Assembly (NCBI GenBank): GCA_026988435.1
Contig: JALSLH010000083.1
Span: 78,558-142,557, forward strand
From: Methylophaga sp.
GTDB taxonomy: Bacteria > Pseudomonadota > Gammaproteobacteria > Nitrosococcales > Methylophagaceae
Direction: 5' to 3'
Length of the DNA stretch: 64,000 nt
The notes under the pieces were generated by a model. It was not told the DNA's origin, did not search any database, and saw nothing but the letters and a program-made list of their open reading frames with translations. Each line of letters opens with the position of its first letter. Position 1 is the stretch's first letter. The position numbers and the translations under genes are program-made. Shown here in pieces: positions 7,031 to 61,143 of this stretch.

Positions 7031-7105
7031 GTCATTCCGGCAGATTTTTAGCCGGAATCTGATTATAAAGCAAGACTCCGGCTAAAAGCATACCGGAGTG
7101 ACGGA
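7031..7105. repeat. Paired inverted palindromes (dRS3/REP-like)
   Basis: gtcattccggcagatttttagccggaatct (7031-7060) and inverted actccggctaaaagcataccggagtgacgg (from about 7074). Confidence 0.8.
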
Positions 7106-7139
7106 GGGGCGAAAATTTACAGATTGAATGATCACGAGT

Positions 7140-7408
7140 GTATACCCAAATTACTTGAAGATGCAGATTTCAGAGCTTAGCACGAAGGTCAGAACAAGGC
7201 GCAATGTGAAGGCAATGACTAGTCCTTGTCGAGCATTGTAACGCAGTGCTGGCATTCGTGCTAAGCTCCCGCAGGGCAAGAGGATAAACCATTATCTTCG
7301 TCGTTATAAAACTTAGAATTAGAACGACTAATTCCTGCGTTTTATGCCTAGAATATAATGGCTTCTTCTCTTGCTGAAACCTGCATCTTCAAGTATTTTG
7401 GGTATATA
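7140..7408. mobile_element. MITE-like structured element with ~26 bp terminal inverted repeats
   Basis: TIR tatacccaaattacttgaagatgcag / ctgcatcttcaagtattttgggtata; internal 14 bp perfect inverted repeat gagcttagcacgaa/ttcgtgctaagctc. Confidence 0.75.
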
Positions 7409-58701: not shown

Positions 58702-59328
58702 CTAATCGAGTAGAGATGTTGCAATTTTTAACATTTTATTTGTTTGAAAAATAAAATGCCAACGCCTTCCACCTTTTTGTCGCCATAGAATGGCGGCTCT
58801 AATTCCGGCTAACAATAATGCACGAACACGGTTTATATTGTCCGCTTGCTGCAAGAAGGAAGGCTCGCCTTGCACCTGAATTCGAGGATTTAATTCACTG
58901 ATTGTACGATGATATATATCCGCTAAACGAGCAATAACTTGAGCGTTGTTGATATCGCCAAAATATTCAACTTGCTGCGGAATTTGTTCAATTTCACGAC
59001 TAATTAAATCCATCATGGCAGGTCGTTTGGCAAGTTGTCTTTCTAAATGAAGTAAATTAATGGCATAACGCAATAATTGCACATCTTTTTTATCTTTACT
59101 TTTTGAAAGCTGACTATTGAGTTGTTTTAATCCAGATTTTAATTGACCAATATCGCCGTAGACTGCTTCAGTTGTGGGTGCATCAACGGCGAGTAGGCTG
59201 TTGAGTGCTGTTTCAAAATCAGCTTGCTCGACCTGACCTGTTTCAGCGATTTGTTGAACTAAAGTTATTGCCTGCATCAAGGCCGCGAGTGCAATAATTC
59301 GATCACGCTCTCGATGATTAATACTCAT
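58702..59328 (-). CDS. hflD: High frequency lysogenization protein HflD homolog
   Basis: [25 protein letters not shown]; downstream of mnmA as usual. Confidence 0.93.
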
Positions 59329-60434
59329 GGATGGATTCCAGGTGCATCCGTACTAACAATTATGCCTCCGCCTAAACAATCATCCCCTTTGTAAAAAACG
59401 ACAGATTGCCCCGGTGTAACAGCACGTTGTTTATCTTCAAACACAACATTGATCTTGCCATCATCATCTTGCGTAATCGTACAGACTTGGTCAGGCTGGC
59501 GATAGCGTGTTTTAGCCATTGCATTGCATGGCAAAGAGGGTGGTTTTCCTGCTACCCATGATAATTGCTGTGCTTTTAACGACTGACTATGTAACCATGG
59601 ATGATCGCCTTGCACTACGTAGAGAACTTTCTTCTCCATATCTTTACCTGCAACAAACCACGGCTCGCCAGAACTGTCTTTTCGCCCACCGATACCTAAG
59701 CCTTGACGTTGGCCTAGTGTGTAATACATTAAACCTTGATGCTGGCCAATCACTTCGCCTTCAGGCGTTTGCATTTCGCCCGGTTGCGCGGGGATATAGC
59801 GAGCAAGAAATTCACGAAAACGCCGTTCACCAATAAAACAGATACCGGTACTGTCTTTTTTATCGTGTGTAATAAAACCGGCTTGTTCGGCAATGCGGCG
59901 TACTTCAGGTTTAGGCAAGTCGCCTAATGGAAAAAGAGTGCGAGATAATTGATCCTGGCCTAAGGTGTATAAAAAGTAACTTTGGTCTTTATTGTGATCA
60001 AGCCCCTTTAATAAATGGAAACCGTCTTTTTGTTCTTCAACACGGGCATAGTGTCCTGTTGCAATTAGATAGCCGCCTAAGTTCATTGCATGGTCAAGAA
60101 AGGCTTTAAATTTAATTTCTCGATTACATAAAATATCAGGGTTAGGCGTGCGGCCAGCACGGTATTCATCAAGAAAATTCTTAAATACAAAATCCCAATA
60201 TTCCATGGCAAAATTGGCTTCGTGGAAGGGGATATTGATTTTATCGGCAACAGAATTAGCATCATCACGATCTTCAGCGATGGTACATTCACTTTCTTCG
60301 GCAAAATCAACCCAGTTTTTCATAAACATGCCTTCAACATCATAGCCCTGCTGTTGCAACAATAATGCAGCTACTGATGAATCAACTCCGCCGGAAAGGC
60401 CGACTACAACTTTATTTTTATTTTGTTCTGACAC
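59325..60434 (-). CDS. mnmA: tRNA-specific 2-thiouridylase MnmA
   Basis: [36 protein letters not shown] start. Confidence 0.97.
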
Positions 60435-60435
60435 G

Positions 60436-60700
60436 TGGGTCCCTCTATCTGTTTAAGCAATGTTCTGGCGACGCCAAAAAGTTATCATCAAGGCATAATT
60501 TGCGGTGAATGGTTATTCCCTTCATAAGAATTATAACGCAGAGGATAGCTTTTTGGCTAAGCCCCGAAGGGCGAGCCTTTAAGCAGTCATCTTCGTTGTT
60601 ATATTCCTTGCGAAAGGGAATACCATTTGCGGCGGAACATGCCTAGAATATGAGCGCTTGAAGACTCGCAGAATAATTCTTAAACAGATAAAGGGACCCA
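60436..60700. mobile_element. Second member of the ~265 bp structured TIR element family
   Basis: TIR tgggtccctctatctgtttaag / cttaaacagataaagggaccca; internal blocks (taacgcag, ctaagc.cccg, atcttcgt.gttat, atgcctagaatat) shared in order with 7140-7408. Confidence 0.72.
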
Positions 60701-60702
60701 TA

Positions 60703-61143
60703 TTAATTTTTTAATAGTGTTAATGGGTAACGATGTCCAGCAAGATAATCATCAAAACAATCTTGAACTAAAGGGCTACGAAACGTTGCTTTTCTTCTTT
60801 TTAATTGCTTTTGATTTAACCAAAAAGCTTGGTTTATGTCTGGGTCAAGCGTTAGGCTTGAATCGGCCTGAATTGGATTGCCTGTAAAGCAAAATCGCAT
60901 ATAGGTATCACCATTATTTGGAAGCTGCCAACGATAAATTCCTACTAACGCTGTTGGTTTAAAGGTCCATGTCGTTTCTTCACGTGTTTCACGAATCACC
61001 GCTTCGATTAGGCTTTCGCCGGATTCGAGGTGACCTGCGGGTTGATTGAGTGTCATCTTGCCGTCTATTTCTTCCTCGACCATCAGAAAGCGATTGTCGA
61101 GTTCGATTACTGCGGCGACGGTGGTGCGTGGAGTCCAAATCAT
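60703..61143 (-). CDS. NUDIX hydrolase (NudJ-like)
   Basis: GHLESGESLIEAVIRETREETTW Nudix box. Confidence 0.93.
   Translation of the reverse strand: MIWTPRTTVAAVIELDNRFLMVEEEIDGKMTLNQPAGHLESGESLIEAVIRETREETTWTFKPTALVGIYRWQLPNNGDTYMRFCFTGNPIQADSSLTLDPDINQAFWLNQKQLKRRKATFRSPLVQDCFDDYLAGHRYPLTLLKN

Follow-up and report, generated by a model that had tools for sequence, protein, structure and literature searches.

The 265-bp near-palindrome at positions 60436-60700 of the window (the whole 64,000-nucleotide stretch of Methylophaga sp. DNA that was analyzed), between mnmA and nudJ, is a real, mobile and structured element, a variant of the ERIC/IS630 kind of MITE, and what is new in it is the inverted doublet, the wide host range and the different ends. 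That it is an ERIC-like structured MITE we hold with high confidence. With somewhat less assurance we favor, as the whole explanation, a non-autonomous ERIC-like MITE in which selection acts on the single-stranded fold, probably in mRNA. The element and its ends are as follows.

60436..60700, no strand assigned: whole element, an inverted doublet of one structured module within matched terminal arms
60436..60467, + strand: left terminal arm TGGGTCCCTCTATCTGTTTAAG..., which adjoins the mnmA GTG start at 60434 and provides the bases preceding GTG
60669..60700, - strand: right terminal arm, which stops short of the nudJ stop codon by 2 bases

Both neighboring ORFs lie on the - strand: mnmA at 59325-60434, with its GTG start at 60434, and nudJ at 60703-61143, with its stop at 60703. 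The gap between the mnmA GTG and the nudJ stop is wholly occupied by the element, and an earlier note on this DNA had been correct in its coordinates and in describing the gap as filled. The note's count of 21 complementary bases among the 22 at the ends was borne out as well, and over 32 nt the complementarity of the arms (60436-60467 with 60669-60700) reaches 88%. The element is absent from this site in about 20 congeners, in which the nudJ stop abuts the mnmA start (ATG) or lies a few bases from it at most; because the two genes adjoin in these genomes, the 60436-60700 element is an insertion. The junction sequence in the nearest congener (G008, nudJ protein 88% identical) is AATTAAACATGTCAG, and the window junction, when compared with this empty site, reads AATTAATAT-element-ACGTGTCAG. 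There is a possible 4-bp target duplication, ATAT/ACGT, which has two differences and is no longer exact, and copies of the GGGTCCC type show no clear TA duplication. Short, non-coding, bounded by terminal inverted repeats and inserted at dispersed sites, 60436-60700 has the properties of a MITE. The mnmA start codon became GTG, and the bases preceding it, AGAGGGACCCAC, are derived from the arm, as the note had proposed; the AGAGG within AGAGGGACCCAC-GTG resembles a ribosome site and offers a putative one for mnmA. A search of the window against Rfam gave zero matches at gathering thresholds, and the best match in the element at loose thresholds scored 12.4 bits (E = 4.3).

The interior has the layout arm - module A - CCCGnnGGG - module B - arm, in which two opposed copies of a module of ~115 nt lie inside the terminal arms and have a central CCCGAAGGG in common.

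60463..60577, - strand: module A (R1 E = 4.6e-10, R2 E = 1.1e-16; own-genome coordinates C83:139020-139134), ERIC-like boxes read on the + strand
60557..60673, + strand: module B (R1 E = 3.3e-22, which is the own-genome value of a covariance model built with an alignment that includes the 60436 sequence itself; R2 E = 1.6e-18; own-genome coordinates C83:139114-139230), ERIC-like boxes read on the - strand
60560..60572, no strand assigned: shared center AGCCCCGAAGGGC, the overlap of the two module matches
60490..60494, + strand: 5' loop box AAGGC of module A
60535..60541, + strand: 3' loop box AACGCAG of module A
60591..60602, + strand: 5' loop box CTTCGTTGTTAT of module B
60639..60651, + strand: 3' loop box ATGCCTAGAATAT of module B

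In the left half of the element the covariance model recovers this module again, oppositely directed, and a covariance-model match with both modules opposed, our test for the ERIC-like superfamily, was obtained with 60436-60700. Both modules, overlapping at the center, were found at 19 of 29 loci from other genomes, the rest of which include degenerate or contig-end cases. The asymmetric internal loop between the outer and inner stems is nearly invariant; read on one strand, its 5' side is CAAGGC and its 3' side AACGCMG. Single-module elements (A or B) inside terminal arms were observed at L003 (G000:C40:30473-30572), L065 (G014) and L137 (Hydrogenovibrio). An additional block of ~50 nt is present in the apical part of module A at L045 (G000:C24:18443-18759), and several other modules of the source genome match over ~165 nt rather than 117, which suggests inserts like that of L045.

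The stems covary. Twenty-four right-hand hairpins were aligned by MAFFT, structure-free and unfitted to the covariance model; 22 of the 36 consensus pairs were changed on both sides, with a score of 0.469 against 0.147 for shuffled alignments and 149 double-changed cells against 48. When the partners in this set were slid by one column, the proportion of paired cells fell from 95% to 37-46%. A set of 68 diverse modules, in an alignment that was fitted to the model, scored 0.754 against 0.185 shuffled. The covariation suspected in the earlier note was real. The segments ggttattccctt and aagggaatacc, which it had read as long-range partners, are one apical segment seen in the two inverted copies of the module rather than a lone long-range helix, and the covariation is mostly local to each of the two hairpins and within the terminal arms. 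The arms of 30 elements gave a mean score of 46.4 when each left arm was compared with its own right arm, and 14.5 ± 5, mostly unmatched, between different elements.

As RNA, the 265-bp element has a computed fold of -119.5 kcal/mol, compared with -66 ± 4.6 for shuffled sequences (z = -11.5). The best fold of a related element at 7141-7407 is a cloverleaf composed of the arms and two hairpins, whereas the 60436 copy would gain ~6 kcal/mol by folding into one long hairpin instead of the two-hairpin cloverleaf, when local folds are composed. Since module A's outer stem does not complement that of module B across relatives, we take the predicted local hairpins to be the conserved fold. An integron attC site was also considered for the 60436 element and was dropped on a reading of the sequence, the conserved GTT being bulged and not facing AAC.

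The two strands are not equivalent. On the strand first modeled, A·C mismatches outnumbered G·T mismatches in 33 modules, with the reverse in 4 (modules outside the Methylophaga set, relatedness ignored), and the complement strand folded better in 41 of 49 modules (relatedness likewise ignored). This asymmetry and the better folding of the complement point to selection on one strand, whether as RNA or as single-stranded DNA, and it is the strand that bears the ERIC-like boxes. The doublet could instead be an ordinary MITE with an unselected fold, its symmetry maintained by mutation alone through template switching between the quasi-palindrome arms. Quasi-palindrome correction, in which one arm is copied onto the other, is a known mutational process, and arms and stems do remain matched as the sequence drifts. 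Nevertheless, the loop boxes stay fixed and unpaired and are not corrected into the stem, the module recurs across classes, and the A·C/G·T asymmetry indicates one strand, which is not predicted by arm copying in double-stranded DNA. We consider maintenance by mutation alone unlikely, and selection of the fold as a single strand is the reading we retain.

The earlier note had called the element a divergent second copy of the one near the start of the window, which is described by one further feature.

7141..7407, no strand assigned: sister element (family 1), with TATACCC ends and the two-module layout seen in 60436-60700

The internal blocks listed in the note occur in the same order in 7141-7407, and the two sequences are related beyond chance, their local alignment scoring 347 (shuffle mean 189, sd 18.4, max 266, n=500); blastn within the genome aligned them at 68% over 133 nt (E = 0.008). 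The 60436 element is indeed a divergent relative whose ends are different yet self-complementary, but it belongs to a separate lineage. Family 1 has dozens of copies in the genome, with one core and with ends TATACCCAAATTACTTGAAGATGCAG in some and TATACCCGTGACCATTCAATCTGCAG in others. Family 2 (60436-60700), in contrast, has a single copy in its own genome; its relatives occur in five further genomes from the genus or family, with cores 76-91% alike, at unrelated sites and with other arms. Named matches among the relatives of the source genome placed that genome in a Methylophaga-like genus. We conclude that 60436-60700 is a lineage within a class-wide superfamily of inverted doublets.

Several other arrangements were observed. 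A different palindromic core, of the GTCATTCCGGC...GCCGGAATGAC type, lies within TATACCC-type ends at 7031-7140 of the window, adjacent to the 7141 element, and elsewhere in the source genome at L222:120-420, and these ends therefore enclose more than one kind of core. Solo palindromes of 33 bp, AGTACTCCRTCAA-N7-TTGAYGGAGTACT, have IS630-type ends without any core at L307, L313, L318 and L328 (G254, G139). A search for same-site copies in two congeners, which would reveal arm changes after insertion, found none and yielded only independent nearby insertions; L055 (G000:C53) and L068 (G018:C29) are such family-1 insertions, with different ends, no more than ~100 bp apart in a common intergenic region. 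The element at L150 (G254:C251) is flanked by two sequences that are inverted repeats of one another, which is probably an assembly artefact of the contig end.

Ends matching an IS630 element were seen for family 1 and for a further group with AGTACTCC ends. Congener G018 carries an intact IS630-family element with a 380-aa ORF (DDE_3, E = 1.2e-36) and ends TATATACCCGTAATCCTTCAATTTGCAGA / TCTGCAGTTTCAATGATCACGGGTATATA, which are of the family-1 type, and another genome carries a 1391-bp IS630 with a broken ORF and the AGTACTCC ends. The three genomes of the genus that have near-full DDE_3 matches contain 99, 83 and 32 modules, and every other genome contains 11 or fewer. An autonomous element with GGGCACCTCT ends was sought in six genomes, which gave short derivatives only, and no partner transposase was found for the GGGTCCC / GGGCACC-type ends of family 2. 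Mobilization of the sister families by IS630 is well supported; for the 60436 copy we only infer it, by kinship. In the mechanism we propose, a DDE transposase working in trans on the arms would move the element, and one that acts on GGGTCCC arms presumably exists.

The element might alternatively resemble a REPIN, with the inverted hairpin pair moved as single-stranded DNA by a hairpin-recognizing HUH (Y1) transposase and the outer arms secondary. REPINs are inverted REP doublets that show compensatory changes (PMC3116915), the element is likewise an inverted hairpin doublet with conserved extrahelical bases, and the strand asymmetry is compatible with single-stranded DNA too. The terminal arms, however, are of the same type as IS630 ends, IS630 elements with such ends exist, and module numbers across the genus track IS630. 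Movement by an HUH enzyme we regard as more doubtful still than the arm-copying explanation, and we continue with transposition in trans by a DDE enzyme.

Modules were detected by model R1 in 51 of 369 sampled genomes of Gammaproteobacteria, and by model R2 (E ≤ 1e-4) in 95 of 399 sampled genomes of Pseudomonadota, 47 of them in Gammaproteobacteria; the 48 from other classes belong mostly to a single family. The source genome has ~99 modules, and Thiomicrorhabdus and Hydrogenovibrio are among the named hosts. The sole match in phages and plasmids by blastn was a 54-nt piece in an Azotobacter plasmid, and a search of viral contigs by box pattern gave no match. Among the copies in the source genome, which are intergenic, a crude ORF call placed 14 between tandem, 10 between divergent and 2 between convergent genes, and they often fill the entire gap.

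As to what the element does, an effect at the mRNA level is the most likely role, a view we hold tentatively and by analogy, since ERIC in Yersinia alters the stability of co-transcribed mRNA via RNase E (as summarized in PMC2229807 and PMC10969869). The unit consists of the module in two opposed copies, both built from a variable outer stem, a fixed asymmetric loop and an inner stem and enclosed by matched arms, so that the layout is the same on both strands; as the doublet is inverted, a transcript made in either direction has one module in the box-carrying sense. Selection on the fold would act on a single strand, most likely in mRNA. The element showed no intrinsic terminator, for which reason we propose that in the nudJ-mnmA transcript it would form hairpins that allow transcription through. 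These hairpins may tune processing or stability on both sides, as reported for ERIC in Yersinia, and the element would also provide the sequence ahead of the mnmA start codon. A structured regulatory RNA specific to nudJ-mnmA (a riboswitch or a leader, for example) would suit the strong structure and the position within the operon, but it is very improbable given the ~20 congeners that lack the element at this site, the relatives at unrelated loci and the lack of an Rfam match. As an ancestral regulator of nudJ-mnmA the element is refuted; it may have been co-opted there later.

The kinship with ERIC was evaluated at loci from Escherichia, Salmonella, Klebsiella, Citrobacter, Pantoea and Rahnella. 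Most of the ERIC loci compared have [C/G]AAGGC-GGC ... GCC-AACGC-[A/C] in one common position, with the terminal stem on one side and the inner stem on the other. With filters off, R2 was run on 14 ERIC loci; each of the best six matches (16.7 to 9.6 bits) spanned the ERIC in register, on the strand that the modules predict, and three further matches of this kind lay lower down. The scores are individually weak (16.7 bits at best), and a test of the boxes only gave p < 0.05 for 8 of 12 ERICs; we argue for kinship because position and strand agree, not from single scores. By the strict definition of ERIC, a unit of ~127 bp with a conserved 44-bp center GTGAATCCCC...GGGGTGAGCG, the element falls outside, being 265 bp long with two modules and a different apical sequence. 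The ERIC loop CAAGGC / AACGC(A/C)G, which separates the outer from the inner stem, is found at 60490-60494 and 60535-60541. ERIC looks like a one-module relative in which the terminal repeat serves as the outer stem.

ERIC has been used for decades in strain typing, and its role is still debated. We suggest, more tentatively than the mRNA-level role, that ERIC may be an enterobacterial offshoot, with one module, of an ancient superfamily of mobile folded elements in Proteobacteria, whose module, with its fixed asymmetric loop on one strand, is carried inside the ends of several transposase families, and that the doublet may work in either direction of insertion because a conserved cell factor (an RNase, an RNA-binding protein or a single-strand DNA enzyme) recognizes the loop. 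A superfamily that spans a class, shares the loop of ERIC, shows covariation at dozens of helix pairs and has clear partners among IS630 elements provides hundreds of natural variants, which indicate the important bases and the strand, and selection on the ERIC fold becomes directly testable. The 60436 case illustrates how such an element slips into an operon and replaces the region before a start codon.

A full-text literature search with conserved module strings returned unrelated papers only, a search for MITE with Methylophaga returned nothing relevant, and no published report of inverted doublets was found in the literature outside subscription papers. Correia/NEMIS, YPAL/RU-2, CIR and QMITE2 are, like the element, structured bacterial MITEs or palindromic repeats, and CIR is also two-armed; they differ in sizes, ends and hosts (PMC2229807, PMC10969869). 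With REPINs, inverted REP doublets moved by RAYT, the element shares an intergenic inverted hairpin doublet and compensatory changes (PMC3116915). The likeness to IS630-derived MITEs of the CCC type lies in family 1, whose ends are shared with the intact IS630 of congener G018; unlike these, the 60436 copy ends in GGGTCCC..., for which the search gave no partner, and it lacks a clear TA duplication. ERIC has been described only in Enterobacteriaceae and Vibrionaceae (review PMC10969869), and MITEPlu5/ERIC of Photorhabdus resembles CCC-type IS630 ends and has a strong fold (PMC6267812). Whereas ERIC has ~127 bp and one module, the 60436 element has 265 bp, two inverted modules with their own stems and GGGTCCC ends, and does not keep the 44-bp ERIC center. 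Like ERIC / IRU / RU-1 (MITEEc1, MITEYpe1, MITEPlu5), it is an intergenic palindromic MITE with the loop boxes CAAGGC / AACGC(A/C)G (PMC6267812), and family 1 has, like ERIC, IS630-type ends, TATACCC...TGCAG.
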